DNA of 64,000 bases from the NCBI RefSeq assembly GCF_003574625.1, contig NZ_QNUJ01000003.1, forward strand, positions 186,001 through 250,000, in the 5' to 3' direction. Origin of the DNA: Shinella zoogloeoides (GTDB taxonomy: Bacteria > Pseudomonadota > Alphaproteobacteria > Rhizobiales > Rhizobiaceae). A model generated the notes under the pieces. That model ran no database searches, was not told the origin of the DNA, and was given only the letters and a program-made list of their open reading frames with translations. Every line of letters starts with the position of its first letter. Within the stretch, counting starts at the first letter, position 1. The translations under genes were made by a program, and so were the position numbers. Positions 41,554 to 64,000 of this stretch are shown piece by piece.

Positions 41554-41556
41554 TTT

Positions 41557-42501: not shown

Positions 42502-42554
42502 CGGCGATGTCCTGTCCTGCTGTGCAAGAAAAAGCGTTTTTCATATCCCGTCTT

Positions 42555-42594
42555 AGAGCATTTCCGGTGAATTCCGATCCGCCGGAAATGCTCT
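42555..42594. repeat. RIME-like inverted repeat
   Basis: AGAGCATTTCCGG at 42555-42567 and CCGGAAATGCTCT at 42582-42594 form a perfect 13-bp stem with a 14-nt loop. Elements with this GAGCATTTCC core are common intergenic repeats in Rhizobiaceae (recalled). Here it separates eryC from eryD and may affect transcription or mRNA stability. Confidence 0.7.
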
Positions 42595-42647
42595 GGCTTT
42601 TGTTTTAACCGCATCGTGCGATGCCGCGGCAAGCGGCCCGGACGCGG

Positions 42648-43583: not shown

Positions 43584-43591
43584 GGTCGTCC

Positions 43592-45103: not shown

Positions 45104-45152
45104 TTGGGTCTCCTTCAGCGCCGGCCGCAGAGGGGGCGCACTCGTCGTTTCG

Positions 45153-47345: not shown

Positions 47346-47483
47346 ATGTTCCGTTTCGAAGGCATCGGCACGCGGCCCTGGCGCCATGGTCGTGTCTTCC
47401 GGCCCGTCGATGTCCCCGGCATCGTGCCGGCGTGCCCGCTGACGCTTTCACCGTTCAACCGCAAGGCCATCCGACATGACTGA
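47346..47483 (+). CDS. Candidate 45-residue small protein upstream of the transporter operon
   Basis: A 45-residue frame starting MFRFEGIGTRPWRHGRVF, with GGAGGG 9 bp upstream (47331-47336) and high GC at third positions like real genes here. Its TGA at 47481-47483 overlaps the ATG of the DUF2291 gene at 47476 by 8 bp, a typical translational-coupling layout. A competing ATG at 47341, with a different 33-residue frame, lies closer to the GGAGGG. I do not recognise the product. It may be a leader that couples translation, or chance. Confidence 0.35.
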   Translation: MFRFEGIGTRPWRHGRVFRPVDVPGIVPACPLTLSPFNRKAIRHD

Positions 47484-48126: not shown

Positions 48127-49664
48127 GCGCGATCCCCGAAACCGGACAGAAGGGCGAAGTCGTTCTTGCCGCGCGCAACGTGGCGAAATCCTACGGCAGC
48201 GTCCATGCCCTCAAGGGCGTCAATTTCGATATCCATCGCGGGCAGGTGACGACCCTGTTCGGCGAGAACGGCGCCGGCAAGTCGACGCTGATGAAGATCC
48301 TTTCCGGTGTGGTCAGGCCGACATCGGGCGAAATCATTCTCGATGGGGAACCGGTCGTCTTCGCGTCATCCTCCCAAGCACGTGACCGCGGCATCTCCAT
48401 CATCCATCAGGAGCTCAGCCTCGCCCCGAACATGAACGTTCGCGACAACATCTTCATGGGGCGCGAGATCATGACCTCCACCGGCGTGGACTTCGCCGAG
48501 GAAGAGCGCCAGACGCGCCTCCTGATGGAAGAACTCGAAGAGGACATCGATCCTCTGACGCTCGTCGAGGACCTGCGGCTCGGCCAGCAGCAGATCGTCG
48601 AGATCGCGCGCGCCCTTTCGGTCAATTCGCGCATCCTGATCATGGACGAGCCGACCTCGGCGCTGTCGGCCTCCGAGGTCGAGGTGCTGTTCAAGGTCAT
48701 CCGCGACCTGACCGGCCGCGGCGTCTCCATCGTCTATATCTCGCACCACCTCGAAGAGGCTCTGCAGATCACCCACCATGCGGTGGTGTTGCGCGACGGC
48801 ACGATGACGGCCTATGCCGAGCGCAAGGACATCGACCTCGAATGGATCGTCCGCCACATGGTGGGCGATAATTTCGACCTCGGCTCGCCGCCGGCCGGCT
48901 ACCAGATGGGCGATGTCTCGCTCTCCATCGAGGGCCTGACCGTTCCCGATCCGGGTGGCGCCGGCTATTCGGTCGTCGACGGCATGTCGCTGTCGGTGCG
49001 CGCGGGCGAGATCGTCTGCATCTACGGCCTGATGGGTGCCGGGCGCACGGAACTGCTCGAAACCGTCGCGGGCCGCCTGAAATCCACCGCCGGCAAGGTC
49101 GTGCTGAAGGGCCGGGACGTCACCGGCCAGTCGATCGCCGAATGCATCCGCGACGGCCTCGTGCTCGTGCCGGAAGACCGCCAGCGCGACGGACTGGTGC
49201 AGACCATGAGCGTCGGCCGCAACCTCTCGCTCGCCAGCCTCGGCGCCTTCACGCGCGGCCTCTTCACCTCGACGTCACGCGAAGGCGGGCTCGTCGACAG
49301 CGCGATCCGCAAGGTGCATATCAAGACGGACGGCGGCGCGGCCGCCATCGGCTCGCTGTCGGGCGGCAACCAGCAGAAGGTCGTCATCGGCAAGATGCTG
49401 GCGACCGATCCCGAGGTCATCCTGCTCGACGAGCCGAGCCGCGGCATCGACATCGGCGCCAAGGCGGAGGTCTTCAAGCTGCTCGCCGAGCGCGCGAAAC
49501 AGGGGCTCGCCGTGGTCTACACGACCTCGGAAGTCGGTGAATGCCTGAGCATCGCCCATCGCATCATCGTCATGCGGCGCGGCCGCATCTCCGCCGAATT
49601 CGGTCCCGACGCGACCAAAGAACAGATCATGGCCGCCTCCGGCGAAGCCGTGCATGCCCATTAG
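48123..49664 (+). CDS. eryE: Sugar ABC transporter ATP-binding protein, erythritol uptake (EryE-like)
   Basis: A 513-residue double-domain ATPase of the RbsA/MglA class. First domain: Walker A GENGAGKSTL, signature LRLGQQQIVEIARALS, Walker B LIMDEPTSALSASE. Second domain: AGEIVCIYGLMGAGRTEL with degenerate Walker A, LSGGNQQKVVIGKMLA and LLDEPSRGIDIGAKAE. The pattern of one strong and one weak site is normal for the family. Symbol follows the rhizobial eryEFG transporter, inferred from divergence with eryA. Confidence 0.88.
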   Translation: MSAIPETGQKGEVVLAARNVAKSYGSVHALKGVNFDIHRGQVTTLFGENGAGKSTLMKILSGVVRPTSGEIILDGEPVVFASSSQARDRGISIIHQELSLAPNMNVRDNIFMGREIMTSTGVDFAEEERQTRLLMEELEEDIDPLTLVEDLRLGQQQIVEIARALSVNSRILIMDEPTSALSASEVEVLFKVIRDLTGRGVSIVYISHHLEEALQITHHAVVLRDGTMTAYAERKDIDLEWIVRHMVGDNFDLGSPPAGYQMGDVSLSIEGLTVPDPGGAGYSVVDGMSLSVRAGEIVCIYGLMGAGRTELLETVAGRLKSTAGKVVLKGRDVTGQSIAECIRDGLVLVPEDRQRDGLVQTMSVGRNLSLASLGAFTRGLFTSTSREGGLVDSAIRKVHIKTDGGAAAIGSLSGGNQQKVVIGKMLATDPEVILLDEPSRGIDIGAKAEVFKLLAERAKQGLAVVYTTSEVGECLSIAHRIIVMRRGRISAEFGPDATKEQIMAASGEAVHAH

Positions 49665-49677
49665 GAGCGCCGAACCC

Positions 49678-50718
49678 ATGTCAGTCACACCTGCAATCCA
49701 GACGAAGGCAGCGGCAAGCGGCGGCAAGCGCAAGAAGAGCCTGATCGAGCTTCTGTTCGAGGGCCGCGCCTTCTTCGCGCTGATCGCCATCGTCGTCGTC
49801 TTCTCGCTGATGTCGCCGAACTATTTCACGGTCAGCAACTTCCTGATCATGGCCTCGCATGTCGCCATCTTCGGCCTGCTCGCCATCGGCATGCTGCTGG
49901 TCATCCTGAACGGCGGCATCGACCTTTCGGTCGGCTCGACGCTCGGCCTTGCCGGCGTCGTCGCCGGTTTCCTCATGCAGGGCGTGACGCTGCCGCAACT
50001 CGGTATCATCCTCTATCCCTCGGTCTGGGTCGTCGTGGTGCTGACCTGCCTGCTTGGCGCGGTCGTCGGCGCGGTGAACGGCGTGCTCATCGCCTATCTC
50101 AAGGTGCCGGCCTTCGTCGCGACGCTCGGCGTGCTCTATGTCGCCCGCGGCATCGCGCTGCTGATGACCAACGGCCTGACCTACAACAATCTCGGCGGCC
50201 GCCCCGAACTCGGCAATACCGGTTTCGACTGGCTCGGCTTCAACCGCCTTGCGGGCGTTCCGATCGGCGTCCTCGTGCTCCTCGTCTTCGCCATCGCCTG
50301 CCATGTCCTGCTTGCCCGCACGGCCTTCGGCCGCTGGCTCTATTCCTCGGGCGGCAACGAGCGCGCGGCGGAACTGTCGGGCGTGCCGGTCAAGCGCGTG
50401 AAGATCACGGTCTATGTGCTCTCGGGCATCTGCGCGGCCGTCGCCGGCCTCGTCCTCTCCTCGCAGCTCACCTCGGCGGGCCCGACCGCCGGCACCACCT
50501 ACGAACTGACGGCGATCGCCGCCGTCGTCATCGGCGGCGCGGCGCTGACGGGCGGCCGCGGCACGGTCATCGGCACCATGCTCGGTGCCTTCGTGATCGG
50601 CTTCCTCTCCGACGGCCTCGTGATCATCGGCGTCTCGGCCTACTGGCAGACGGTCTTCACCGGCGCCGTCATCGTTACCGCTGTTCTCCTGAACAGCGTC
50701 AAATACGGCCGCCGCTGA
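49678..50718 (+). CDS. eryF: Sugar ABC transporter permease, erythritol uptake (EryF-like)
   Basis: A 346-residue RbsC-type permease with about ten transmembrane helices. NGGIDLSVGSTLGLAGVVAG is the conserved N-terminal half motif; ERAAELSGVPVKRVKITVY and GGAALTGGRGTVIGTMLGA are the coupling and family motifs near the C-terminus. The start at 49678 has GGAG upstream, 13 bp after the ATPase stop. It forms the membrane channel with EryE and EryG. Confidence 0.9.
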   Translation: MSVTPAIQTKAAASGGKRKKSLIELLFEGRAFFALIAIVVVFSLMSPNYFTVSNFLIMASHVAIFGLLAIGMLLVILNGGIDLSVGSTLGLAGVVAGFLMQGVTLPQLGIILYPSVWVVVVLTCLLGAVVGAVNGVLIAYLKVPAFVATLGVLYVARGIALLMTNGLTYNNLGGRPELGNTGFDWLGFNRLAGVPIGVLVLLVFAIACHVLLARTAFGRWLYSSGGNERAAELSGVPVKRVKITVYVLSGICAAVAGLVLSSQLTSAGPTAGTTYELTAIAAVVIGGAALTGGRGTVIGTMLGAFVIGFLSDGLVIIGVSAYWQTVFTGAVIVTAVLLNSVKYGRR

Positions 50719-50744
50719 CCTCAGCGGCGACCGGCACAGACTGA

Positions 50745-50786
50745 CCGCTGCCGGGAGAGGCGGACCATCGAGTGGCCCGGCAGCGG
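50745..50786 (+). promoter_or_regulatory. Intercistronic hairpin before the binding-protein gene
   Basis: CCGCTGCCGGG at 50745-50755 and CCCGGCAGCGG at 50776-50786 form a perfect 11-bp stem with a 20-nt loop, between the permease and binding-protein genes. It has no T tract. Such hairpins commonly stabilise or process mRNA so binding protein is made in excess (inference). Confidence 0.6.
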
Positions 50787-50837
50787 AAAGTATTGCCGAC
50801 AATCGGCACAACCGGACTCAACAAAGGGAGTGAGACC

Positions 50838-51785
50838 ATGTTCAAAAAAGGTATGCGTGTACTCTTCGCGGCAACGGCCGTCATGCCGCTGCTGTTCAGC
50901 TCTGCCTGGGCGGACGGCCTGATCACCGTCATCGTCAACGATCCGTCGAACCCCTACTGGTTCACGGAAGGCGAAGTCGCCAAGAAGACCGCCGAAGGCC
51001 TCGGCTACACGGCCAATGTCGGCGCCCACAAGGGTGACACCAACACCGAGAGCAACCTGATCGACACGGCGATCACCAACAAGTCGGTCGCCATCATCCT
51101 CGACCCGGCGAATGCCGACGGTTCCGTGGGCGCGGTCAAGAAGGCCGTCGCCGCCGGCATCCCGGTCATCCTCGTCAATGCCGAGATCAACCAGGAAGGC
51201 CTCGCCAAGGCGCAGCTCGTCTCGAACAACGCCCAGGGCGCCGCGCTCGGCGCGCAGCAGTGGGTCGAGGCGGTCGGCGACAAGGGCAAGTATGTCGAAC
51301 TCTTCGGCGCTCCCTCCGACAACAACGCCGCGACGCGTTCGAACGGTTACGAAACCGTCCTGACGCAGTACCCTGACCTCGAGAAGGTCGCCAAGGAAGT
51401 GGCTGACTGGGACCGCACCAAGGGCCATGACAAGATGCAGTCCATGCTCCAGGCGAACCCCGACATCATCGGCGTGATCAGCGGCAACGACGAAATGGCC
51501 CTCGGCGCCATCGCCGCGCTCAAGGAAGCCGGCAAGCTCGACCAGGTCAAGGTCGGCGGCTTCGACGGTTCGCCGGATGCAGTTGCCGCCATCAAGGCCG
51601 GTGAATTGCAGTACACCGTCCTCCAGCCGGTCGCCGTGTTCTCGGAAGCGGCCGTCAAGCAGGCCGACAGCGTGATCAAGAACGGCTCCACCGGTGTCGA
51701 TACCGAAAAGCAGCTCTTCGATTGCCTCCTGATCACCAAAGACAATGTCGACAAGTACACCGCTCCCTTCGTCCTGAGCGAGTAA
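50838..51785 (+). CDS. eryG: Sugar ABC transporter substrate-binding protein, erythritol uptake (EryG-like)
   Basis: A 315-residue periplasmic RbsB-family protein. Signal peptide MRVLFAATAVMPLLFSSAWA, then LITVIVNDPSNPYWFTEGEV, the binding-fold start. LVSNNAQGAALGAQQWVEA and GVISGNDEMALGAIAALKEA line the ligand cleft. GGGAGTGAGACC precedes the ATG at 50838. Probable ligand erythritol or a related polyol, by context. Confidence 0.9.
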   Translation: MFKKGMRVLFAATAVMPLLFSSAWADGLITVIVNDPSNPYWFTEGEVAKKTAEGLGYTANVGAHKGDTNTESNLIDTAITNKSVAIILDPANADGSVGAVKKAVAAGIPVILVNAEINQEGLAKAQLVSNNAQGAALGAQQWVEAVGDKGKYVELFGAPSDNNAATRSNGYETVLTQYPDLEKVAKEVADWDRTKGHDKMQSMLQANPDIIGVISGNDEMALGAIAALKEAGKLDQVKVGGFDGSPDAVAAIKAGELQYTVLQPVAVFSEAAVKQADSVIKNGSTGVDTEKQLFDCLLITKDNVDKYTAPFVLSE

Positions 51786-51903: not shown

Positions 51904-52758
51904 ATGGCAGGGCCTCCGGTGAACAAGAAAGTCGACGTTAAGGATTTGCTTTCGGAAGAATTGCCGAGCGACAGCCGGCATGCGCGCCAGCTCGTGCGGC
52001 GCCAGATGATCGCCGAGACGGTGATCGGCGAAGGCTCGATCCGCATCGAGGACCTGACCGAGCGCTTCGGCATCAGCCTCATGACGGCGCACCGCGACGT
52101 CGACGATCTCGTCAGCCGCGGCCTCTTCCGCAAGACGCGCGGCATCGTCTCCGCCGCGCCGACCAGCCTCATCGAATCCTCCGACGCCTACCGTGCCACC
52201 CGGCAGGCGAAGGAGAAGAAGGCGGTCGCGAAGGCCGCCATGCAGTTCGTCGAGCCGGGCCAGGCGATCTTCATGGATGACGCCACGACCGTGCACGAGA
52301 TGACGCGGTTCCTGCCGGCCAAGGTGCCGCTGACGATCATCACCAACTCGCTCGTCCTCATCAACGAGCTGAAGGAGGTGAGCGACCTCAACCTCGTCTG
52401 TCTCGGGGGGCAGTTCTACAATTGGTGCAATGCCTTCATGGGGCACATCACCACCAACGAGATCCGCCGGCTGCGCGCCGACACCGTGTTCATGTCGCTG
52501 TCGGCCATCGTCGACGACGTGGTCTATCACCAGTCGCCCGAGACGGTGGAAACCAAGCGGGCGATGTTCGAAAGCGCGGCGCGGCGCGTGCTTCTGGCGG
52601 ACCACACCAAATTCGAGCGGCGCGCGCTGCATCACTTCGCGACGCTCAAGGAATTCGACGCCGTGATCGTCGACGAGGATATTCCGATCTCCCACCTGTC
52701 GCGCATGCGCTCGAAGGGGATCAACGTGATTGTGGCGGACGGGGAACGGTCCGGCTGA
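51904..52758 (+). CDS. DeoR-family transcriptional regulator
   Basis: A 284-residue DeoR/GlpR protein. The helix-turn-helix is IRIEDLTERFGISLMTAHRD, with LVSRGLFRKTRGIVS as the wing. The effector part has AIFMDDATTVHEMTRFLPAK and HTKFERRALHHFATLKEFDA. It leads the second sugar region and probably represses the kinase-dehydrogenase-DAK genes that follow. Inducer likely a sugar phosphate, as in relatives. ATG at 51904 has no strong ribosome site. Confidence 0.9.
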   Translation: MAGPPVNKKVDVKDLLSEELPSDSRHARQLVRRQMIAETVIGEGSIRIEDLTERFGISLMTAHRDVDDLVSRGLFRKTRGIVSAAPTSLIESSDAYRATRQAKEKKAVAKAAMQFVEPGQAIFMDDATTVHEMTRFLPAKVPLTIITNSLVLINELKEVSDLNLVCLGGQFYNWCNAFMGHITTNEIRRLRADTVFMSLSAIVDDVVYHQSPETVETKRAMFESAARRVLLADHTKFERRALHHFATLKEFDAVIVDEDIPISHLSRMRSKGINVIVADGERSG

Positions 52759-52827
52759 GGGGACCGCCGCCGCGGCTGCCCCGATACCCGGTTCCGTTCC
52801 GCCGTTCGCCCGAGAATGGAGGCATGG

Positions 52828-54354
52828 ATGCCCTGCATCATGGGTATAGACAGCGGCCTGACGGTGACGAAGGCCGTCATTTTCGACGCGGACGGCACGG
52901 CGCTCGCCATCGCCCGCCGGCGCGTTCCCCAGCTCATCCCCGCGCCGCAGCATGTCGAACGCGACATGGACGGCCTGTGGACCGCGACGGCCGAAGCCAT
53001 CCGCGAGGCTATCTCAGCCTGCGGCCGCCCGGCCTCCGATATCGTGGCGATCGCCGCGACCGCCCACGGCGACGGCATCTACCTCCTCGATGAAGACAAA
53101 AGGCCGCTCGGCCCCGCCATCGTCTCGCTCGATACGCGCGCCGGGGCGATTGCCGACGCCTGGAACGAGGGCGAGGTCGGCGCCCACGCGCTGGAGCTGA
53201 CCGGCCAGCGCCCGCATGCCTCGGCACCCTCCGCCATCCTGCGCTGGATCTTCGAGCACCAGCCGGAGCGTTATGCCCGCATCGCCCATTTCATCGCCGC
53301 CAAGGACTGGCTGCGCTTCTGCCTCTGCGGCACCATCGGCACGGACCGCACGGAGGCGAGCACTTCCTTCACGGACGTGACGACGCAGGACTATGCCGAA
53401 AACGCCTTCCGCCTCTTCGGGCTGGATCGCCTCGCCGGACGGCAGCCGCCGATGGCCGCTTCCACCGAGGTCGTCGGCGGCGTGACGGCGGAGACCGCGC
53501 GCCTGACCGGGCTGGTCGAGGGCACGCCCGTCATGGCGGGCCTGCATGACGTCACCGCCTCCGCGCTCGGCATGGGCGGCTATGGCGAAGGCGTGGTGGC
53601 CGTCATCGCCGGCACCTATTCGATCAACGAGACCGTCTCGCCCACACCGAAGGTCGATGGCCGCTGGTTCTGCCGCAACGGCATCCTGCCCGGCGAGTGG
53701 AACAACATGTCCATCTCGCCCGCCTCCACCGCCAATTACGACTGGTTCATCGAGCAGTTCTGCGCCGCCGATGCCCGGCAGGCGGAGGTGGCCGGCGAGA
53801 GCATCCATGCGATCCTCGGCAATGAATTCGAGGCCGCGCGCGAGCGGCCTTCGAGCACTTTCTTCCATCCCTACCTCTTCGGCTCGCCCTTCGGCGGCGC
53901 GTCGAGCGCTGGCTTCTACGGCCTCAATGCCTGGCACGACCGCGGCGACCTCGTCCGCGCGGTGCTGGAAGGCATCGCCTTCAACCACCGCGTCCATGTC
54001 GATGCGCTGCGCGACGGCTTTGCCCCCACCGCCGCGCGCCTGACGGGCGGCGTCTCGCGCAATCCCGCCATGGCCGGCCTCTTCGCCGATATCCTCGGCA
54101 TGCCCGTCACCGCGACGCGCACCGAGGAGGCGGCGGCTTGGGGGGCGGCGCTCTGCGCGGGTGCCGGCGCCGGCCTCTACGCCTCGCCCACCGACGATCC
54201 GCGCGACCTCGCGTCGATCGAGACGACCTACCAGCCGGACCCAGACCGGCAGCGTGCCTATGACGAGAAATACCGGGTCTTCCTCGATCTCGCCGAGGCG
54301 ATGAAACCGCTCTGGCCGACGCTCCGGCGTCTCGGCGGGGCGGCGCAAGTTTAG
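52828..54354 (+). CDS. FGGY-family carbohydrate kinase
   Basis: A 508-residue sugar kinase. MGIDSGLTVTKAVIFDADG is the N-terminal ATP/phosphate motif, ATAHGDGIYLLDED holds the catalytic-region Asp, and RLTGGVSRNPAMAGLFADI the adenosine motif. GGAGG at 5 bp supports ATG 52828. It resembles L-xylulose/3-keto-L-gulonate kinases. It is followed directly by a GlpD-like gene, mirroring eryA-eryB, so the two may phosphorylate and oxidise another polyol. Substrate unknown. Confidence 0.9.
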   Translation: MPCIMGIDSGLTVTKAVIFDADGTALAIARRRVPQLIPAPQHVERDMDGLWTATAEAIREAISACGRPASDIVAIAATAHGDGIYLLDEDKRPLGPAIVSLDTRAGAIADAWNEGEVGAHALELTGQRPHASAPSAILRWIFEHQPERYARIAHFIAAKDWLRFCLCGTIGTDRTEASTSFTDVTTQDYAENAFRLFGLDRLAGRQPPMAASTEVVGGVTAETARLTGLVEGTPVMAGLHDVTASALGMGGYGEGVVAVIAGTYSINETVSPTPKVDGRWFCRNGILPGEWNNMSISPASTANYDWFIEQFCAADARQAEVAGESIHAILGNEFEAARERPSSTFFHPYLFGSPFGGASSAGFYGLNAWHDRGDLVRAVLEGIAFNHRVHVDALRDGFAPTAARLTGGVSRNPAMAGLFADILGMPVTATRTEEAAAWGAALCAGAGAGLYASPTDDPRDLASIETTYQPDPDRQRAYDEKYRVFLDLAEAMKPLWPTLRRLGGAAQV

Positions 54355-54365
54355 GAATGCCGATC

Positions 54366-56039
54366 ATGACAGAAACGACAGCCGGAACCGTCGAGACCTT
54401 CGACGTCATCGTCCTTGGCGCGGGCATCAACGGGGCGGGGCTCTTCCGCGATCTCTGCCTGCAGGGGCTGAAATGCCTGATCGTCGACAAGGCCGACTTC
54501 GGCTCCGGCACCAGCGCCGCCCCCTCGCGCCTCATCCATGGCGGCATCAAGTATCTGGAGACCGGCGAGCTCGGCCTCGTCGCGCAGTCGACGCTGGAGC
54601 GCAACCTCCTCCTGCGCAACGCGCCGCATTGCGTGGAGGCGCTGCCGACCTTCATCCCCTCCTTCTCGCTGACGAAGGGCGCCTTCGCGGCGCTGCGCAC
54701 GCTGCTCGGCTCCACCACCGCCCCGCGCAGCCGCGGCGCGCTCCTCATCAAGATCGGCCTTGCGCTCTACGATCTCTATGGCGCGCGCCATCGCGTCATG
54801 CCGAAGCACCAGTTCTTCTTCCGCCGCAAGGCGCTGGAGGAGATGCCGGCGATCACGCCGCGCATCGTCGCGGGCGGCATCTACTACGACGCCAAGATCA
54901 GCCGGCCCGAACGGCTCGTCTGGGAGCTGGTGCGCGACGGCCTCGACGCCAGCCCTGCCTCCCGCGCCATGAATGATACGACGCTGCTCGGGCAGGAAGA
55001 CGGCGTGCTGCGGCTGCGGGATCCGCGCGGTAGCGAGCGGTTTGCCCGCGCCGGCATCGTCGTCAACGGGGCGGGGCCGTGGATCGATCATGTTAACGAC
55101 ACGCTTGGCGTTCCCGGCAAGCTGATCGGCGGCACCAAGGGCTCGCATATCCTCCTGAGGCACCCGGAGCTGGTAGAAAGCCTGAAAGGCCGCATGATCT
55201 ATTTCGAGGCGGACGACGGCCGCATCTGCCTCGTCTACGATTTCCTCGGCCTCGCGCTCGTCGGCTCGACGGACATCAAGGCGGACAATCCCGATACGGT
55301 GCGCTGCGAAGAGGACGAGATCGACTATTTCCTCGCCAGCCTCCGCTCGCTCCTGCCGGCCCTGCATTTCGGCCGCGAGCAGATCGTCTACACTTATAGC
55401 GGCATCCGCCCGCTGCCGGCCTCCGATGCCAGCCAGCCGGGCCTGATCAGCCGCGACCATTCGGCGCCCGTGGCGGAGCCGGCGGAGGGCCGGCCGTTTT
55501 CCGTCATCTCGCTCGTCGGCGGCAAGTGGACGACGTTCCGCGGCTTTGCCGAGGAGGTGGCCGACACGATCCTTTCCCGCCTCGACCGGAACCGGGCGGT
55601 GAGCACGCAGATGCTGCCGATCGGCGGCGGGCGCGGCTTTCCGGTGGAGGCGGCGGAGCGGCGCGTGTGGATTTCCGGGCGCGCCGCGAAGAGCGGCCTG
55701 CCCGAGGCACGCGTCGAAGCGCTTCTTGCCCGCTACGGGACGATCGCCGATGCCGTTCTCGCGCATATCGAGAAGGTGGGAGATGCGCCGCTCGCCCATG
55801 TCGAAGGCTACGGCCGCGGCGAGATCGACTGGATCGCCCGCAACGAAATGGTCGAACATCTCGCCGACATCGTCATGCGCCGGACGACGCTCGCCATCGA
55901 AGGCAGGCTGACGGCCGAGGGGCTCGACGAGATCGCGGCAGTCGCCGCCGCCGCGCTGGGCTGGGACGAAGGCCGGTGGGAGGACGAGCTTGCGCAGGTC
56001 ACACGACACCTGACGGCATTCAACCGCGTAAACCTTTGA
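54366..56039 (+). CDS. GlpD-family FAD-dependent glycerol-3-phosphate-like dehydrogenase
   Basis: A 557-residue flavoprotein. VIVLGAGINGAGLFRDLCLQ is the FAD motif, GTSAAPSRLIHGGIKYLETG the second, GPWIDHVNDTLG and VGSTDIKADNPDT later ones. The C-terminal DAO_C-like extension (GLPEARVEALLARYGTIADA) is present. ATG 54366 has AGGA at 9 bp; ATG 54357 is closer to the upstream stop. It is likely coupled with the kinase and oxidises its phosphorylated product. It is more distant from EryB, so substrate probably differs. Confidence 0.88.
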   Translation: MTETTAGTVETFDVIVLGAGINGAGLFRDLCLQGLKCLIVDKADFGSGTSAAPSRLIHGGIKYLETGELGLVAQSTLERNLLLRNAPHCVEALPTFIPSFSLTKGAFAALRTLLGSTTAPRSRGALLIKIGLALYDLYGARHRVMPKHQFFFRRKALEEMPAITPRIVAGGIYYDAKISRPERLVWELVRDGLDASPASRAMNDTTLLGQEDGVLRLRDPRGSERFARAGIVVNGAGPWIDHVNDTLGVPGKLIGGTKGSHILLRHPELVESLKGRMIYFEADDGRICLVYDFLGLALVGSTDIKADNPDTVRCEEDEIDYFLASLRSLLPALHFGREQIVYTYSGIRPLPASDASQPGLISRDHSAPVAEPAEGRPFSVISLVGGKWTTFRGFAEEVADTILSRLDRNRAVSTQMLPIGGGRGFPVEAAERRVWISGRAAKSGLPEARVEALLARYGTIADAVLAHIEKVGDAPLAHVEGYGRGEIDWIARNEMVEHLADIVMRRTTLAIEGRLTAEGLDEIAAVAAAALGWDEGRWEDELAQVTRHLTAFNRVNL

Positions 56040-56125
56040 GCGCATTCAGCCGAAGGCATCTTTGCCCTTTTCCCGGTCTGGATCCTGTTGCATCTTCGCG
56101 GCTTGATTGCTTGCAGGAGGCCCCC

Positions 56126-57826
56126 ATGACGAAGATCGTCGATGATCCGGAAACCTTTGCCGCCTCGGCGCTGGCGGGGTTTTCCCGCGTCTATGAGCGC
56201 TACGTCCGGCTGGTGAAGGGGGGCGTGGTTCGCTCGACGGCGGTGCCTTCGGGCAAGGTTTCGGTCATCGTCGGCGGCGGGTCGGGGCATTATCCGGCCT
56301 TTGCGGGCTATGTCGGGCCGGGCATGGCCGACGCGGCGGTTGCCGGTGAGATCTTCGCCTCGCCTTCGACGGCGGCGGTCGCCCGTGTCTGCCGCAATGC
56401 GGACCATGGCGGAGGCATCATTCTCGGCTTCGGCAATTATGCCGGCGACGTACTCAATTTCGGCGTGGCGGCGGAGCGGCTGCGGGCGGAAGGCATCGAT
56501 GTGCGCATCGTCACGGTGACGGACGATGTCGCGAGCGCGCCCGCCGACCGGCACCTGCAGCGCCGCGGCATCGCCGGCGATTTCGTGGTCTTCAAGGTGG
56601 CGGGCGCGGCCGCAGAGGCGGGGCTTGCGATCGACGAGGTCGAGCGCGTGACACGACTTGCCAACAGCCGCACCTTTTCGTTCGGCGTCGCTTTCGGCGG
56701 CTGCACGCTGCCGGGCGCGAAGGACCCGCTCTTCACCGTACCGAAGGGCATGATGGCGCTCGGCCTCGGCATCCACGGCGAGCCCGGCATCCGCGACACC
56801 GACATCGTTCCGGCGCGCGATCTGGCGAGGCTCCTGGTCGAGACCGTCCTGGCGGAGCGCCCGGCCGGCGCGCGTCGCGCCGCCGTGCTGCTGAACGGCC
56901 TCGGCGCGACCAAATACGAGGAGCTCTTCGTGCTCTGGGGCGCGGTCGAAGGCTACCTGCAGGCGGCGGGCGTCGATCCGGTCGCGCCCGAGGTCGGCGA
57001 ATATGTCACCAGCCTCGACATGCAGGGCTGCTCCCTGACGGTGATGTGGCTCGACGAGGAGCTGGAACGCTACTGGCTGGCCCCGTGCGACACGCCCGTC
57101 TTCCGTCGCGGCGAGACTTTCCATACGCAGCCGGCGGCCGTGCGGGATCGTGCGGAAGACGAAGCGCCGACCTTCGGCCCCGCGACGCCCGCCTCGCAGG
57201 AAGGTGCCCGGTGCCTTGCGGGTATCCTCGACGCCATGGTGTCGGCCCTTGGCGAGGCGGAAGCCGAGCTCGGCAGGATCGATGCCTTTGCCGGCGACGG
57301 CGACCACGGCCAAGGCATGCGGCGCGGCGCGACGGCCGCGCGTGAAGCGATCCATCAGGCCGTTGCTGGCGGCGCGGGTGCGAGGAGCGCGCTGGCGGTG
57401 GCAGGCGATGCCTGGGCGGACCGTGCGGGCGGTACGTCGGGCGCGATCTGGGGGCTATTGCTCCGCTCCTGGAGCGGGGCATTCACCGACGACGCGGCCC
57501 CGACAGGGGCGGATATGGTGCGCGGCGCGCGCCTTGCCCTCGACGATGTGATGCGCCTCGGCGGGGCGAAGCCGGGCGACAAGACGCTCGTCGATGCGTT
57601 CGTGCCTTTCGTCGCCGCGCTGGAAGCGGCGAGCGCGGACGGTGCACTGCTGAAAGAGGCCTGGGCCAAGGCAAGCTCTGCCTGCGAAGAGGCGGCGCAG
57701 GCGACGGCGCCGCTTTCCCCACGGCTTGGCCGCGCCCGTCCGCTCGCCGAGCGCAGTATCGGCCATCCCGATGCCGGTGCGGTCTCGCTGGCGCTGATCG
57801 CAAGGACGATTTCGGCCCGATTGTGA
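56126..57826 (+). CDS. Fused DhaK-DhaL kinase, possible L-erythrulose kinase
   Basis: A 566-residue single-chain ATP-dependent dihydroxyacetone kinase family member. Domain 1 (about 1-330): SVIVGGGSGHYPAFAGYVGP, GNYAGDVLNFGVA and GIHGEPGIRDTDI, whose His binds the ketone substrate covalently. Domain 2 (about 365-566): FAGDGDHGQGMRRGATAARE with the Mg-binding Asp residues, and GGTSGAIWGLLL. Family members also include L-erythrulose 1-kinases (LerK). In this tetrose context that activity is plausible, not shown. GGAGGCCCCC precedes the ATG. A terminator follows. Confidence 0.87.
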   Translation: MTKIVDDPETFAASALAGFSRVYERYVRLVKGGVVRSTAVPSGKVSVIVGGGSGHYPAFAGYVGPGMADAAVAGEIFASPSTAAVARVCRNADHGGGIILGFGNYAGDVLNFGVAAERLRAEGIDVRIVTVTDDVASAPADRHLQRRGIAGDFVVFKVAGAAAEAGLAIDEVERVTRLANSRTFSFGVAFGGCTLPGAKDPLFTVPKGMMALGLGIHGEPGIRDTDIVPARDLARLLVETVLAERPAGARRAAVLLNGLGATKYEELFVLWGAVEGYLQAAGVDPVAPEVGEYVTSLDMQGCSLTVMWLDEELERYWLAPCDTPVFRRGETFHTQPAAVRDRAEDEAPTFGPATPASQEGARCLAGILDAMVSALGEAEAELGRIDAFAGDGDHGQGMRRGATAAREAIHQAVAGGAGARSALAVAGDAWADRAGGTSGAIWGLLLRSWSGAFTDDAAPTGADMVRGARLALDDVMRLGGAKPGDKTLVDAFVPFVAALEAASADGALLKEAWAKASSACEEAAQATAPLSPRLGRARPLAERSIGHPDAGAVSLALIARTISARL

Positions 57827-57868
57827 GCGGCTGCCCTTGCCTGAACGCAACATGTTCAGTGTGACATT

Positions 57869-57905
57869 GAGCCGGGCGTCGCGTGACGTCCGGCTCTTTT
57901 TCTTT
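57869..57905 (+). terminator. Rho-independent terminator after the fused kinase
   Basis: GAGCCGGGCGTC at 57869-57880 pairs with GACGTCCGGCTC at 57885-57896 (12 bp, one G-U), tetraloop GCGT, followed by TTTTTCTTTG. Ends the DeoR-kinase-dehydrogenase-DAK unit. Confidence 0.88.
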
Positions 57906-57913
57906 GTTCTGTA

Positions 57914-57937
57914 TGAAACATTATACGAGCTGTTTCA
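57914..57937. promoter_or_regulatory. Inverted repeat TGAAACA-N10-TGTTTCA, candidate operator
   Basis: Perfect 7-bp arms at 57914-57920 and 57931-57937, with a further TGAAAC at 57957-57962. It lies about 90-110 bp before the candidate promoter of the ApnO-like operon. No regulator gene is adjacent on the right; the DeoR protein at 51904 is a candidate. Confidence 0.6.
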
Positions 57938-58025
57938 ATCGCTTGAGTGCCTTCAGTGAAACTGAATTATCAAATAGTGGAAATGAGTATCACCACGCGA
58001 TATCACATATTCAGAGAGATAGTTA

Positions 58026-58054
58026 TTGACATGTTATACCAGTTGAGAAATATA
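58026..58054 (+). promoter_or_regulatory. Candidate sigma70 promoter of the ApnO-like/transport operon
   Basis: TTGACA at 58026-58031 matches the -35 consensus exactly; AATATA at 58049-58054 with 17-bp spacing fits a -10. The downstream gene starts at 58133. The region is AT-rich compared with its surroundings. Confidence 0.6.
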
Positions 58055-58132
58055 GCCTCACGCCGGGTGCCCGGTGGAGGAAATTCCGGCTGACCAACAC
58101 CGTCCGGCCGCATGAATTCAGGGAGGTCTTCG

Positions 58133-58960
58133 ATGACATCGATCGCGCTATTCGGTGCCGGTGGCAAAATGGGGTATCGGCTCGCCAAGAACCTCAAAGG
58201 TTCGCGGTTCGACGTCCGCCATATCGAGGTGAGCGATGCCGGCAAGGCGCGCCTTGCCGACGATCTCGGCCTATCCTGCGTTTCCGCCGATGAAGGTCTC
58301 GCCGGCGCCGATGTCGTCATCCTCGCGGTTCCCGACACGGCGATCGGCAAGGTTGCCAGCGGCATCGTCGACAAGCTGGCGCCCGGCACCATGATCGTCG
58401 TGCTCGATGCGGCCGCACCCTTCGCCGGCCATCTGCCGGAGCGGGCGGATATCACCTATTTCGTCACGCATCCCTGCCATCCGCCGATCTTCAACGACGA
58501 GACGGATCCGGCCGCCAAGCGCGACTTCTTCGGCGGCATCGCCGCCAAGCAGCATATCGTTTCCGCCCTGATGCAGGGCCCGGAAGAGGCCTATGCGCTG
58601 GGCGAGGAGGTCGCGAAGGTCATCTGGGCGCCGGTCATGCGCTCGCACCGCGTGACGGTCGAGCAGATGGCGCTGCTGGAGCCGGGCCTGTCCGAAACCG
58701 TCTGCGCCTCGCTCCTCGTCGTCATGCGCGAAGCCATGGACGAATGCGTGCGCCGCGGCGTCGCCAAGGAAGCCGCCCGTGACTTCCTGCTCGGTCACAT
58801 GAACGTCCTCGGCGCCGTCATTTTCGAGGAGACGCCCGGCGTCTTCTCCGATGCCTGCAACAAGGCGATCGAGTTCGGCAAGCCGGTCCTGATGAAGGAC
58901 GACTGGAAGCGCGTCTTCGAACCTGAAGAAATCGCCGCAAGTATCCAGCGCATCACGTGA
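58133..58960 (+). CDS. NAD-dependent oxidoreductase, 6-phosphogluconate dehydrogenase-like C-terminus (ApnO-like)
   Basis: A 275-residue Rossmann protein. IALFGAGGKMGYRLAKNL is the NAD motif, VVILAVPDTAIGKVASGI the next strand, and YFVTHPCHPPIFNDETDPAA a distinctive catalytic-region stretch. The C-terminal helical part (MALLEPGLSETVCASLLVVM) resembles 6-phosphogluconate dehydrogenases. From memory it resembles ApnO, D-apionate oxidoisomerase, which makes 3-oxo-isoapionate. The MocA-type dehydrogenase and ABC genes downstream support a branched-sugar pathway, but identity needs a database check. ATG 58133 has GGGAGG upstream. Confidence 0.82.
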   Translation: MTSIALFGAGGKMGYRLAKNLKGSRFDVRHIEVSDAGKARLADDLGLSCVSADEGLAGADVVILAVPDTAIGKVASGIVDKLAPGTMIVVLDAAAPFAGHLPERADITYFVTHPCHPPIFNDETDPAAKRDFFGGIAAKQHIVSALMQGPEEAYALGEEVAKVIWAPVMRSHRVTVEQMALLEPGLSETVCASLLVVMREAMDECVRRGVAKEAARDFLLGHMNVLGAVIFEETPGVFSDACNKAIEFGKPVLMKDDWKRVFEPEEIAASIQRIT

Positions 58961-58964
58961 ATAC

Positions 58965-59000
58965 CGGCGGGCTTCGGCCCGCCGCGGGGCGCAATGCCCC
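58965..59000 (+). promoter_or_regulatory. Two tandem intercistronic hairpins
   Basis: CGGCGGGC-TTCG-GCCCGCCG at 58965-58984 (8 bp, UUCG loop), then GGGGC-GCAAT-GCCCC at 58986-59000. They lie between the oxidoreductase and binding-protein genes without a T tract. Probable mRNA-stabilising or attenuating elements, analogous in position to the hairpin before eryG. Confidence 0.6.
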
Positions 59001-59004
59001 ATGA

Positions 59005-60018
<1,014 letters not shown>

Positions 60019-60084
60019 TCTTCGAGGGAGCGGGCGCGGGATGATCGTCATCCCGCGCCTCGCCATATGCCGGAGTACCCATCC

Positions 60085-60720
60085 ATGCGCTTCAAGGCCG
60101 CCGCCGTCATCGTGTTCGCATCAGCCCTCGGGCTCGCGGGCTGCAAGTTCGTCAAGACCGCCGACAAGGACAAGGAGGATCAGGCCGGCGCCTTCGATCC
60201 CGACAAACTTGTCGCCGAGATATGGGATGGCAAGGTCGTGCCCTATCTCGAAAAGCGCGCCGCGCCGCTGCCGGAGGTCCTTTCGGCGACGGCGGCCAAT
60301 GCCGACGAGGCGGGGCGGAAATACGGTTACAAGGCCAGGCAGGGCAACGCGCCCTGGACCTTCATCGCCAAGGTCGATGGGACGATCGTCGCGGAAGAGA
60401 CGAAATCGCGCGCCGGCTATGTCGACGTGGACGTCGACGGTGACGCCAAGGCGGATGTGCGCGTTTCGATCGGCCCGGCCATTCGCGGCACGGCGCTGCG
60501 CGACAGCCTGGATTTCGTGGACTTCAATTCCTTCAAGAACCAGATCGAATGGGCGCAGTTCGGCAAGTCGTTCAACACTTATGTGAACCGCACGCTTCTC
60601 GAAAAGCTGCCGCGCGAGGGACTGACGGGCAAGACGATCAAGGCGACGGGCGCCTATCCGCTGCCGGCCGCCGGCCAGTTGCCGCAGCTCGTTCCCGCCA
60701 CCATCACCATCGGAGGCTGA
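60085..60720 (+). CDS. DUF2291 lipoprotein of the second transporter locus
   Basis: A 211-residue protein with a lipoprotein signal: hydrophobic stretch then GLAGCKF, giving a lipidated Cys near residue 20. The mature part has FVDFNSFKNQIEWAQFGKSF and LTGKTIKATGAYPLPAAGQL, homologous to the DUF2291 protein at 47476-48126. The start at 60085 has GGAG upstream and places the signal at the terminus. Neighbouring a ribose-type transporter again points to a role in uptake. Its stop is 1 bp before the ATPase start. Confidence 0.83.
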   Translation: MRFKAAAVIVFASALGLAGCKFVKTADKDKEDQAGAFDPDKLVAEIWDGKVVPYLEKRAAPLPEVLSATAANADEAGRKYGYKARQGNAPWTFIAKVDGTIVAEETKSRAGYVDVDVDGDAKADVRVSIGPAIRGTALRDSLDFVDFNSFKNQIEWAQFGKSFNTYVNRTLLEKLPREGLTGKTIKATGAYPLPAAGQLPQLVPATITIGG

Positions 60721-60721
60721 C

Positions 60722-62266
60722 ATGAGCGGCATCGACGATGGCGAGGTCATTCTCGAACTGAAGGACATCACGAAGGCCTATTCCGGCATCGTGGCGCTGA
60801 AGAAGGCAAACCTGAAGCTGCGGCGCGGCGCGGTGAATGTGCTGGTGGGCGAGAACGGTGCGGGCAAATCCACCATGATGCGCATCATTGCAGGCGTCGA
60901 GCGGCCGACGCTCGGCGAGATATGGATGGAGGACGAGCGCATCACCCTCGACAGTCCCGCCGATGCGGTGCGCCACGGCATCGGCATCGTCTTCCAGGAG
61001 TTGAACCTCTTCGGCAATCTTTCGGTCGCGGAGAACATCTTCGCCACCCGCGAGATCACCCGTGGCATCCGGGGCATCGATCACAAGGCGCAGGTCGAGA
61101 AGGCGAACGAGTTCCTGAACCGCCTCGAAGCCGGCATCTCGGCCGATACGCTGGCCGAGGACCTGCCGATCGGCCAGCAGCAGCTCGTCGAGATCGCGCG
61201 GGCGGTCTCGCTCGATACTCGCATCCTCATCATGGACGAGCCGACCTCCGCCCTCAGCGCGGCGGAAGTCGATGTGCTCTTCCGGGTCATCGCCGACCTC
61301 AAGGCGCGCGGCGTCGCCATCGTCTATATCTCGCACCGACTGGAAGAGCTGATGCGCATCGGCGACTACATCACGGTGCTGAAGGACGGCCAGATCACCG
61401 GCCATGCTATGGTCAAGGATATCGACACGCGCTGGATCGTGCGCTCGATGATCGGTTCCGACGCCAAGGATTTCGCCAAGCAGGTCGACCATGCGCCGGG
61501 CGCGGAAGTCTTCCGCACGCAGGATATCTGCCTGCCACGCGCACAGGGCGGCTATGCGGTCGATCACGTCTCCATCGGCGTCCGCGCGGGTGAGATTCTC
61601 GGCATCTACGGCCTGATGGGCGCGGGGCGCTCCGAGCTTTTCGAATGCATCATGGGCCGGCACGAACATGCGACCGGCAAGGTCTTCGTCGATGGCAAGG
61701 AATTGAAGGGCCGCGATACGACCCGGCGCATTCGCGAGGGTCTGGCGCTGATCCCGGAGGACCGGCAGCGCGAAGGCCTCGTCCAGTCCATGTCGATTGC
61801 CGACAACCTTTCGATGGCAAGCCTCGGCCAGTTCGTGAGAGGCGGCTTCCATATCGATCTCAAGCTGGAGAAGAAGGCGATCCTCGATGCGATCCGCAAT
61901 CTCTCCATCAAGGCGAAGAACCCGGAACTGGACGTTACCTCCATGTCGGGCGGCAACCAGCAGAAGGTGGTGATCGGCAAGGCGCTGATGACCGGGCCGA
62001 AGGTGCTGCTGATGGACGAGCCGAGCCGCGGCATCGATGTCGGCGCCAAGGCGGATGTCTTCCGCACCATGCGGCGGCTGGCGGGCGAGGGGCTCGCCAT
62101 CCTCTTCTCCACCTCCGACCTCGAGGAGGTCATGGCGCTCTCCGACCGTATCGCCGTCATGAGCAACGGCCGCCTGGTGACGGTGGTGGATCGCAAGGAC
62201 GCTACCGAGGAGATGATCGTCTCGGCCTCCGCGGAGGGACATAAAACCAAAAGGATGCATGCGTGA
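60722..62266 (+). CDS. Ribose-type sugar ABC transporter ATP-binding protein
   Basis: A 514-residue RbsA-class double ATPase. First domain: Walker A GENGAGKSTM, LPIGQQQLVEIARAVS, LIMDEPTSALSAAEVD. Second: AGEILGIYGLMGAGRSELFE, MSGGNQQKVVIGKALM and LLMDEPSRGIDVGAKAD. It is close in architecture to EryE. The gene overlaps the permease start (TGATG). Energises uptake through the permease at 62266. Confidence 0.92.
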   Translation: MSGIDDGEVILELKDITKAYSGIVALKKANLKLRRGAVNVLVGENGAGKSTMMRIIAGVERPTLGEIWMEDERITLDSPADAVRHGIGIVFQELNLFGNLSVAENIFATREITRGIRGIDHKAQVEKANEFLNRLEAGISADTLAEDLPIGQQQLVEIARAVSLDTRILIMDEPTSALSAAEVDVLFRVIADLKARGVAIVYISHRLEELMRIGDYITVLKDGQITGHAMVKDIDTRWIVRSMIGSDAKDFAKQVDHAPGAEVFRTQDICLPRAQGGYAVDHVSIGVRAGEILGIYGLMGAGRSELFECIMGRHEHATGKVFVDGKELKGRDTTRRIREGLALIPEDRQREGLVQSMSIADNLSMASLGQFVRGGFHIDLKLEKKAILDAIRNLSIKAKNPELDVTSMSGGNQQKVVIGKALMTGPKVLLMDEPSRGIDVGAKADVFRTMRRLAGEGLAILFSTSDLEEVMALSDRIAVMSNGRLVTVVDRKDATEEMIVSASAEGHKTKRMHA

Positions 62267-63330
62267 TGACGACAGGAACGCAAACGGCCGCCGAAAACGG
62301 CCTCTCAACCGGATCGGCCCTGCTCACGCTGATGAAGCTGAGGACCTTCATCGCGCTCTTTGCGGTGATCATCTTCTTCTCGATCTTCGCGCCGAACTTC
62401 CTGTCGACCGCGAACATGATCCTGATGTCGAAGCACGCGACGCAGAACGCCTTCCTCGCCATCGGCATGACCTTCGTCATCATCACCGGCGGCATCGACC
62501 TTTCGGTCGGCTCCATCGTCGGCCTCTGCGGCATGATTGCCGGCGGGCTCATCATGTATGGTGTCGCCGTGCCCTTCGGCTACACGGTCTATTTCAACAT
62601 CGTCGAGGTCGCGGTCATCGTCATGGCGGTCGGCGTCCTGATCGGCGCGGTCAACGGCCTGCTGATCACCCGCCTCAATGTCGCGCCCTTCATCGCCACG
62701 CTCGGCACGCTCTATGTGGCGCGCGGCATGGCGCTGCTCTATTCCGACGGCCAGACGCTGCCCAATCTCACCGGCCGTGAAGACCTCGGCAACCAGGGCT
62801 TTTCCTATCTCGGTTCGGGCACGATCCTCGGCCTGCCGGTCTCCGTCTGGATCCTCATCGTCGTCGCACTGGGCGCGGCCTATTTCGCCCGCTTCGTGCC
62901 GCTCGGCCGGCACATCTTCGCCGTCGGCGGCAACGAGCGCGCCTCGCGCATGTCCGGCATCCGCGTCAACCGCGTGAAGATGTTCGTCTACATGTTCTCC
63001 GGCTTCTGCGCGGCCATCGTCGGCCTCGTCATCTCCTCGGAGCTGATGGCCTCGCACCCGGCGACCGGCACGAACCTCGAACTGAACGCCATTGCGGCGG
63101 CCGTCCTCGGTGGTACATCCATGTCGGGCGGGCGCGGCACCATCGGCGGCACGATCATCGGCGCCTTCGTGATCGGCATCCTCTCCGACGGTCTGGTGAT
63201 GATGGGCGTCAGCTCGTTCTGGCAGATGGTGATCAAGGGCCTCGTGATCATCGTGGCCGTGGTGGTCGACCAGGCGCAGCGCCGCCTCCAGCAGCGCGTG
63301 ACCCTGATGCAGATGGCAAAGGCAGGCTGA
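62266..63330 (+). CDS. Ribose-type sugar ABC transporter permease
   Basis: A 354-residue RbsC-type permease with about ten hydrophobic segments. ITGGIDLSVGSIVGLCGMIA and ERASRMSGIRVNRVKMFVY are family motifs, and GGTSMSGGRGTIGGTIIGAF is the C-terminal one. AAGGA at 62251-62255 is 10 bp before ATG 62266; a GTG at 62263 is also in frame. It is followed 2 bp later by the dehydrogenase gene. Confidence 0.92.
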   Translation: MTTGTQTAAENGLSTGSALLTLMKLRTFIALFAVIIFFSIFAPNFLSTANMILMSKHATQNAFLAIGMTFVIITGGIDLSVGSIVGLCGMIAGGLIMYGVAVPFGYTVYFNIVEVAVIVMAVGVLIGAVNGLLITRLNVAPFIATLGTLYVARGMALLYSDGQTLPNLTGREDLGNQGFSYLGSGTILGLPVSVWILIVVALGAAYFARFVPLGRHIFAVGGNERASRMSGIRVNRVKMFVYMFSGFCAAIVGLVISSELMASHPATGTNLELNAIAAAVLGGTSMSGGRGTIGGTIIGAFVIGILSDGLVMMGVSSFWQMVIKGLVIIVAVVVDQAQRRLQQRVTLMQMAKAG

Positions 63331-63332
63331 GC

Positions 63333-64000
63333 ATGGCGAAGTTCAAGGGTGCGCTGATCGGCTGCGGCTTCTTCGCCGTCAACCAGATGCATGGCTGGCG
63401 GGACCTGCCGGATGTGGAGATCGTCGCGATCTGCGACCGCGATCCCGAGCGGCTCAACATCGTCGGAGACCAGTTCGGCGTTGCGAGGCGCTATCGGGCG
63501 GCGGAGGAAATGTTCGCCGATGGCGGCTTCGATTTCGTCGACGTCGCGACGACGGTTGGCAGCCACCGTGCGCTTGTCGAGCTTGCCGCGCGCCATAAGG
63601 TGCCAGCGATCTGCCAGAAGCCGTTCGCGCCGACGCTGGCGGATGCGAAGGCCATGGTCGCCGCCGCCGAGGCGGCCGGTATTCCGCTGATGATCCATGA
63701 GAATTTCCGCTGGCAGACGCCGATCCTCGCGGTCAAGGCGGTGCTGGAGAGCGGCGCGATCGGCACACCCTTCTGGGGTCGCGTCTCGTTCCGTTCGGGC
63801 TTCGACGTCTTTTCCGGTCAGCCCTATCTCGCCAAGGGCAAGCGTTTCGTCATCGAGGATCTCGGCATCCACTCGCTCGATATCGCCCGCTTCCTGTTCG
63901 GCGATGCCGGCCGCATGACGGCCCGCACCAAGCGCATCAATCCGGAGATCGCGGGCGAGGACGTGGCGACCATGCTGCTCGACCACGACAACGGCATCAC
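63333..64000 (+). CDS. Gfo/Idh/MocA-family dehydrogenase, truncated by window end
   Basis: The first 222 residues are present, with no stop before the edge. GALIGCGFFAVNQMHGWRDL is the NAD(P)-binding motif, CQKPFAPTLADAKAMVAAAE contains the EKP-like motif (here QKP), and ENFRWQTPILAVKAVLE and EDLGIHSLDIARFLFGDA are the C-terminal-domain motifs. MocA enzymes oxidise sugars at C1 or C3. In this context a D-apiose 1-dehydrogenase (ApsD-like) is a reasonable guess, inferred from the ApnO-like neighbour. The substrate is unproven. Confidence 0.88.
   Translation, partial: MAKFKGALIGCGFFAVNQMHGWRDLPDVEIVAICDRDPERLNIVGDQFGVARRYRAAEEMFADGGFDFVDVATTVGSHRALVELAARHKVPAICQKPFAPTLADAKAMVAAAEAAGIPLMIHENFRWQTPILAVKAVLESGAIGTPFWGRVSFRSGFDVFSGQPYLAKGKRFVIEDLGIHSLDIARFLFGDAGRMTARTKRINPEIAGEDVATMLLDHDNGI

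Follow-up and report, generated by a model that had tools for sequence, protein, structure and literature searches.

Background

The D-apiose decarboxylation pathway that uses a RuBisCO-like protein (RLP) is reportedly due to Carter et al. (2018) and comprises ApsD, ApnL, ApnO, OiaK and OiaX; the product of OiaX is L-erythrulose 1-phosphate. Among the enzymes of tetritol degradation, LerK is a kinase of the DAK type, LerI a TIM-type isomerase and DerI an RpiB-type isomerase. PMC6302742 has 3-oxo-isoapionate-4-phosphate decarboxylated by an RLP, and PMC11747546 reports the same five-enzyme set, together with growth on D-apiose, in a Rhodobacteraceae strain. In Mycobacterium smegmatis the tetritol pathway LerK-LerI-DerI ends in D-erythrose 4-phosphate; according to PMC10733421, EryC interconverts D- and L-erythrulose 1-phosphate, LerI converts L-erythrulose 1-phosphate to D-erythrulose 4-phosphate and DerI leads from there to D-erythrose 4-phosphate. 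Erythritol (ery) loci of the Rhizobium/Brucella type combine eryABCD-R-H-I with eryEFG in a divergent layout (PMC3599248). Here we examine a stretch of 64,000 nucleotides from Shinella zoogloeoides (positions 186,001 to 250,000 of NZ_QNUJ01000003.1; hereafter the window), in which a predicted D-apiose cluster is joined to a complete ery locus.

The locus resembles the D-apiose RLP pathway in that all five enzyme types are present, with OiaX and ApnL scoring over curated cut-offs; it differs in its junction with a complete ery locus, and for the last two steps no candidates were found other than EryH and EryI of that locus. The ery part has the gene set and divergent layout of the described locus, but here a block of three genes, DeoR2-FGGY2-GPD2, comes after the transporter. 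A DAK kinase and the TIM- and RpiB-type isomerases recall the tetritol pathway of M. smegmatis, whereas no EltD-like dehydrogenase was recognised among the annotated genes of the island. The chemistry of the apiose pathway is already known and the present cluster is a new member; the interest lies in the arrangement. A search of a limited set of papers for apiose, erythritol and rhizobia together found none, and the arrangement may have been described before.

Results

Layout of the island

We consider it highly probable (about 85%) that in this island an RLP-type D-apiose route adjoins a complete erythritol locus and that both end in EryH and EryI. From left to right, the window contains the ery genes (- strand), an erythritol-type transporter (+ strand), DeoR2-FGGY2-GPD2-DAK, apnO, a second ribose-type transporter and apsD; beyond its edge, within 6 kb, follow apnL, a GntR regulator on the other strand, oiaX and a gene for an OiaK-like kinase. 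The genome measures 5.38 Mb; the window lies on its contig C21, and the sequence past the right edge of the window was taken from the same contig (extension L005, whose positions plus 62000 give window positions). The apiose cluster comprises:

58112..58960, + strand: apnO, D-apionate oxidoisomerase-like; PF16896 (PGDH_C), 255 bits
59032..63330, + strand: apiose-cluster (second ribose-type) ATP-binding cassette (ABC) transporter, with binding protein, DUF2291, ATPase and permease, recognised by families
63333..64367 (L005:1333-2367), + strand: apsD, MocA-type D-apiose dehydrogenase-like, cut by the window edge at 64000; PF01408, PF22725
64364-66229 (L005:2364-4229), + strand: apnL, lactonase; NF049900, 829.8 bits, cut-off 750
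66226-66942 (L005:4226-4942), - strand: GntR regulator; NF003011, 352.3, cut-off 260
67092-68348 (L005:5092-6348), + strand: oiaX, RuBisCO-like decarboxylase; NF042437, 784.9 bits, cut-off 700; probable GTG start
68352-69647 (L005:6352-7647), + strand: oiaK-like kinase; best model NF042436, 437.3, cut-off 700 missed

Judged by their families, ApsD, ApnO, ApnL, OiaX and the OiaK-like kinase would together make up the known RLP route for D-apiose. A reading of the window made from its letters alone (the sequence-only reading) had named an ApnO-like oxidoreductase, a MocA-type dehydrogenase, a second ribose-type ABC transporter and a fused DhaK-DhaL kinase, all of which are present by family matches; it had also expected a lactonase and a decarboxylase past the right edge or elsewhere, and ApnL and OiaX were found past that edge. 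The RefSeq record of a Shinella zoogloeoides plasmid labels its gene oiaX. The best relatives of the ApnO-like protein in the PDB are 5t57 (451.6 bits) and 3c24 (294.3 bits), both deposited under other names, and a PDB search with ApnL gave no match up to E = 1. Because the complete plasmid of Shinella zoogloeoides ATCC 19623 shows an identical order from RpiB to the OiaK-like kinase, the gene order is unlikely to be an assembly artefact. A plus-strand open reading frame (ORF) over the GntR gene (P0005) matches no Pfam family and was taken as antisense. Past the oiaK-like gene, L005:7995-10403 (- strand) holds an ORF of 802 amino acids with a PCMT methyltransferase domain and an erythromycin-esterase-like domain.

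The ery locus comprises:

39464..39922, - strand: eryI / derI, RpiB-type D-erythrulose-4-phosphate isomerase; NF051858, 259.5 bits, cut-off 240; start set from the family match inside ORF 39464-39982
39936..40706, - strand: eryH / lerI, TIM-type isomerase; PF00121, 255 bits; probable start, ORF 39936-40874
40703..41479, - strand: DeoR-type regulator (eryR position); PF00455, PF08220
41557..42501, - strand: eryD, sugar-binding transcriptional regulator; PF04198
42648..43583, - strand: eryC, xylose-isomerase-like epimerase of erythrulose 1-phosphate; PF01261, position and orthologues; probable start, ORF 42648-43712
43592..45103, - strand: eryB, flavoprotein dehydrogenase of the glycerol-3-phosphate dehydrogenase (G3PDH) family; PF01266; probable start, ORF 43592-45217
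45153..46703, - strand: eryA, FGGY erythritol kinase; FGGY-type matches, none over cut-off, and position
47476..51785, + strand: erythritol-type ABC transporter (eryEFG type), with DUF2291, ATPase, permease and binding protein, recognised by families

By families and order, EryA, B, C, D, H and I and the transporter are all in one place, and the order from the TIM gene to the transporter is the same on pRL12 of Rhizobium johnstonii 3841. The complete ery locus with TIM- and RpiB-type isomerases that the sequence-only reading described is real; it sits to the left (39464-46703 and 47476-51785) of the interval for which it was reported, 51904-64000.

EryH and EryI as a probable common end

Searches of the genome, which score a limited number of candidates per genome, found two TIM genes, eryH and one on contig C3 (presumably encoding TpiA), and a single RpiB-family gene, eryI. 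Since EryH and EryI lie in the ery locus and the genome has only these genes of the two families, the EryH-EryI sink is most likely common to the apiose and erythritol routes.

We examined co-occurrence in 199 Rhizobiaceae genomes, with presence defined as at least 60% identity for OiaX and for DAK orthologues, at least 58% for GPD2 and E <= 1e-50 for EryH; the counts take no account of shared ancestry. EryH was found in 34/34 genomes with OiaX and in 27/165 others, and EryC in 29/34 and 15/165, respectively. In the five OiaX genomes that lack EryC (G029, G038, G128, G155, G167), EryH and EryI are located inside the apiose cluster or at its edge, in agreement with an entry of apiose after EryC. 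Such an entry is expected because EryC converts D- to L-erythrulose 1-phosphate (PMC10733421); an earlier idea, in which OiaX and EryB shared one isomer as product and apiose entered at EryC, was dropped on account of this reaction. The distance between OiaX and EryC is no more than about 35 kb in seven of the 34 OiaX genomes (G000, G075, G157, G050, G153, G113, G083), so close joining of the two clusters is a real but minority arrangement.

Loci were analysed for the best 80 of 419 OiaX relatives (a scan of genome contigs). Shinella, with identities of about 90%, accounts for most of the best named loci. Within about 10 kb, 31/80 loci have an EryH- or EryI-like gene (at least 50% identity) and 27/80 a DAK-like match (at least 30%); in 19/80, EryH or EryI is present while the locus contains neither EryA nor EryC. 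These counts are lower bounds as 13/80 loci are cut short. In several neighbourhood comparisons, including those of DAK, of GPD2 and of the five OiaX genomes that lack EryC, matches below 27-30% identity or below 35-40% coverage were removed before counting.

In a tree of EryH (54 rows, near Shinella copies included and the window's own EryH left out), copies from ery loci and from apiose clusters are intermixed, with six changes of the apiose label, at least five of them forced by starred branches; the tree was made by a quick method, has five long rows and takes its labels from distance rules, with 9/54 rows neither ery nor apiose. We had considered apiose-cluster EryH as a clade of its own, or two stereospecific types of EryH, and dropped both as the labels mix. 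From its family, position and exchange between contexts, we infer that EryH is LerI. Gene content, genome searches and co-occurrence therefore favour the proposal of the sequence-only reading that an apiose/apionate branch would feed the erythritol pathway, with EryH and EryI as common end.

Gene families and linkages were observed directly; the reactions, the transported sugar and the point of entry given here would follow those of characterised relatives. D-apiose would be imported by the second ABC transporter and converted by ApsD to the lactone, which ApnL would open to apionate. ApnO would oxidise and rearrange apionate to 3-oxo-isoapionate, which the OiaK-like kinase would phosphorylate and OiaX decarboxylate to L-erythrulose 1-phosphate. 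This product would join after EryC, and EryH and then EryI would yield D-erythrose 4-phosphate; erythritol would arrive at the same point by way of EryA, EryB and EryC.

Regulation of the island

A conserved site around TCATTATACCAG is found upstream of OiaX in 77/80 loci, and a similar site upstream of 60 ApnO genes (65 loci have at least 200 bp upstream of ApnO). The word TGTTATACCA, from the apnO site, is absent from the extension at up to one mismatch; a position weight matrix (PWM) was used instead. The PWM was trained on loci L009-L088, with the window not included; training sites were chosen by the word [CT]ATACCAG for ApnO and by TATACCAG for OiaX, and the core is thus built in. In a scan of about 102 kb, only two sites score strongly, the next best reaching 4.8:

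58025..58049, + strand: proposed apiose operator upstream of apnO; second-best PWM score, 27.2
L005:5026-5050: proposed apiose operator upstream of oiaX; best PWM score, 31.2

Because strong sites occur only before apnO and oiaX, with no strong copy at DAK, the ery genes and the DeoR2-FGGY2-GPD2-DAK block appear to be outside the apiose regulon, as far as the motif tells. DAK and apnO are separated by a gap of 285 bp that contains one further feature:

57869..57896, + strand: terminator-like hairpin with T run between DAK and apnO; 12 pairs, 9 of them GC

One such hairpin was found against 0.4 expected in shuffles, which taken alone is weak evidence. Eight more Shinella loci share the DAK-ApnO junction; in these the intergenic distance is 195-324 bp and a [CT]ATACCAG site lies 48-88 bp before the ApnO match.

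The fused DhaK-DhaL kinase

56126..57826, + strand: fused DhaK-DhaL kinase (DAK), proposed erythrulose kinase; NF011049, 749.8 bits, cut-off 492

The DAK ORF drawn from 55526 is too long, as the family match begins at residue 201. Once rows below 85% of the fused length had been removed, DAK orthologues were found to co-occur with EryH in 23/23 genomes and with EryC in 20/23, uncorrected for ancestry; in the three genomes without EryC (G045, G067, G138), DAK lies beside EryH and EryI. We examined 19 orthologue loci outside Shinella (L119-L137; one more, in G011, was left out). A sugar phosphate isomerase gene accompanies DAK in 13 of these, 12 of which also have PdxA, mostly as an operon-like row of GntR, PdxA, tripartite tricarboxylate transporter (TTT), isomerase and DAK. 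EryH-EryI come after this row in two loci (L129, L131), and DAK, EryH and EryI are adjacent in L129-L131. Annotated examples of PdxA-TTT-isomerase-DAK are carried on Sinorhizobium, Shinella and Pararhizobium plasmids.

The row is also an observation in its own right, conserved at L164:2818-10719 (Sinorhizobium meliloti plasmid p_2) and in L122-L128 and L161-L163. As it ends in EryH-EryI in G045 and G138, the row may serve to break down an acid to erythrulose. In a search for a named decarboxylase beside the DAK relatives, the sugar phosphate isomerase of two such operons matched no NCBIfam family at E <= 1e-10.

In a quick tree, the Shinella DAK copies that come after GPD2 form one starred clade within the orthologue family. 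DAK genes of other lineages accompany OiaX, EryH or EryI in Mesorhizobium, and in G013 and G116 they come behind GPD2. In 9/80 OiaX loci (eight Mesorhizobium and one Rhizobiales), OiaK has a more distant DAK gene less than 200 bp behind it in the same orientation, and Mesorhizobium ciceri has a split DhaK-DhaL pair directly behind OiaK. In Shinella curvata (L016), several DAK-like matches and an EryD-like match occur 1.9-5.6 kb downstream of OiaK, on the opposite strand. The strongest argument for DAK kinases as producers of erythrulose phosphates is their repeated recruitment to the side of EryH-EryI. The DAK of the window probably phosphorylates erythrulose as a side input: with LerK activity, it would most likely fill the same pool from free erythrulose. 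We hypothesize that a DAK behind OiaK-OiaX might rescue L-erythrulose released by spontaneous decarboxylation of the beta-keto acid.

The FGGY2-GPD2 pair

Three further genes (51904-56039), on which the sequence-only reading was silent, lie between the transporter and DAK:

51904..52758, + strand: DeoR2 regulator; DeoR-family matches, none over cut-off
52816..54354, + strand: FGGY2, second FGGY kinase; no model over cut-off, 28% identical to EryA
54357..56039, + strand: GPD2, second G3PDH-like dehydrogenase (flavoprotein); 28% identical to EryB; GlpD 247.5, cut-off 360 missed

GPD2 is present in 22/199 genomes. EryC is found in all 22, compared with 22/177 others, and GPD2 is accompanied by ery genes in 20/22 (the exceptions are L152 and L154). 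The DeoR2-FGGY2-GPD2 block also occurs on pRL12 of R. johnstonii 3841, where the end of the ery locus has a class II fructose-bisphosphate aldolase gene (L159:15705-16769) next to GPD2 and in opposite orientation to it. A related pair is found in Shinella sp. WSC3-e, beside its own ABC transporter, and on a Paracoccus plasmid; neither of the two stretches displayed contains ery genes. The pair is not in Table 2 of PMC3599248, nor does the word 'glycerol' occur in the main text of that paper in its available part, the gene-map figure excluded. Many Rhizobiaceae ery loci thus include FGGY2-GPD2 as an uncharacterised component; it would be a second kinase/dehydrogenase pair for a polyol, and its product probably enters the same pool.

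Two more GPD2-like genes occur in the present genome (G000 C1:643176-644768 and C1:706506-708134; L165 and L166) at 45-46% identity, each close to an FGGY2-like kinase gene and to sugar ABC transporter matches, suggesting more polyol kinase/dehydrogenase pairs.

Discussion

Several results weigh against a joint apiose-erythritol island. The OiaK-like kinase is under the curated OiaK cut-off (437 against 700); we had expected it to pass, and neither it nor any of seven kinases adjoining OiaX in other loci does so (7/7 score 432-477, among them one from Shinella and one from Rhizobium rhizogenes), for which reason the cut-off was used as evidence neither way. No NCBIfam model names ApnO or ApsD here, and their names come from domain, gene order and the literature. 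EryH exceeds the triose-phosphate isomerase model NF000722 (437.4, cut-off 293) and EryB the glycerol-3-phosphate dehydrogenase model NF009906 (872.2, cut-off 352), so that both ery names rest on position and orthologues. Shared ancestry and genome size confound the co-occurrence counts; OiaX and EryC are within about 35 kb in only 7/34 OiaX genomes, although contig breaks may hide cases; and the PWM scan places the apiose and ery clusters apparently under separate regulation. These last two points could mean that the clusters are neighbours by chance with no enzymes in common, given that EryC is absent, more than about 35 kb away or on another contig in 27/34 OiaX genomes and that the operator motif was found at apiose genes only. 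We regard this as very improbable: the genome search gave a single TIM gene besides eryH and none of the RpiB family besides eryI, and excluding EryH and EryI would leave the apiose product without a known isomerase. The apiose cluster might instead run through free L-erythrulose, as the sequence-only reading had it, 3-oxo-isoapionate being decarboxylated first and DAK (as LerK) then phosphorylating the product on the main line. That DAK adjoins apnO, keeps company with EryH in every orthologue genome, stands before EryH-EryI at the end of the two PdxA-TTT operons and has more distant relatives behind OiaK would fit this scheme. It is nevertheless unlikely to be correct, since OiaX would yield L-erythrulose 1-phosphate directly and, with an OiaK-like kinase present to act before it, LerK would not be needed. 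Moreover, DAK lies behind the terminator-like hairpin and the 285-bp gap, outside the operator pair; on a plasmid of Shinella sp. PSBB067 it comes after GPD2 with no OiaX match on that plasmid (the chromosome was outside the comparison), and Shinella sp. H4-D48 has the apiose cluster (L014) and an ery-FGGY2-GPD2 region without DAK. The proposed main-line role is thus not supported, while the identity of DAK as an erythrulose kinase may still hold.

Alternatively, DAK, FGGY2 and GPD2 might have glycerol or dihydroxyacetone as substrates and no connection with tetroses; DAK kinases owe their name to dihydroxyacetone, and the RefSeq record annotates GPD2 as a glycerol-3-phosphate dehydrogenase/oxidase. 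Against this, DAK misses the glycerone kinase equivalog cut-off of TIGR02361 (373.5 against 574.95) and GPD2 that of GlpD, although such cut-offs do not settle substrates because EryB itself passes a glycerol-3-phosphate dehydrogenase model. The association of GPD2 with EryC and ery genes, and the position of DAK beside EryH-EryI in the three orthologue genomes without EryC, also argue for tetroses, and we consider the glycerol alternative rather unlikely.

Within an island whose apiose and erythritol routes would end in EryH-EryI, the junction and the three extra genes in it appear to point to further inputs. We tentatively sketch, as a possibility that is more likely wrong than right, a hub of tetrulose phosphates in which four inputs drain into a single EryH-EryI sink: erythritol; apiose; free erythrulose phosphorylated by DAK, which would also rescue L-erythrulose lost when 3-oxo-isoapionate decarboxylates spontaneously; and a second, novel tetritol route through FGGY2-GPD2, which would start from threitol, or from erythritol at its other end, and arrive at L-erythrulose 1-phosphate without EryC. 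DAK genes of three lineages, as separated in the quick tree, would have been recruited independently to islands of this kind.

The close joining of apiose and ery clusters, the apparently forced sharing of EryH and EryI and the two modules between them are the parts most worth specialist attention. They indicate that a single isomerase pair can be the meeting point of a polyol and a rare branched sugar from plants; they point to a conserved kinase/dehydrogenase pair in rhizobial erythritol loci, including that of Rhizobium johnstonii 3841, and to a likely role for the DAK kinase family carried on Sinorhizobium meliloti plasmids.

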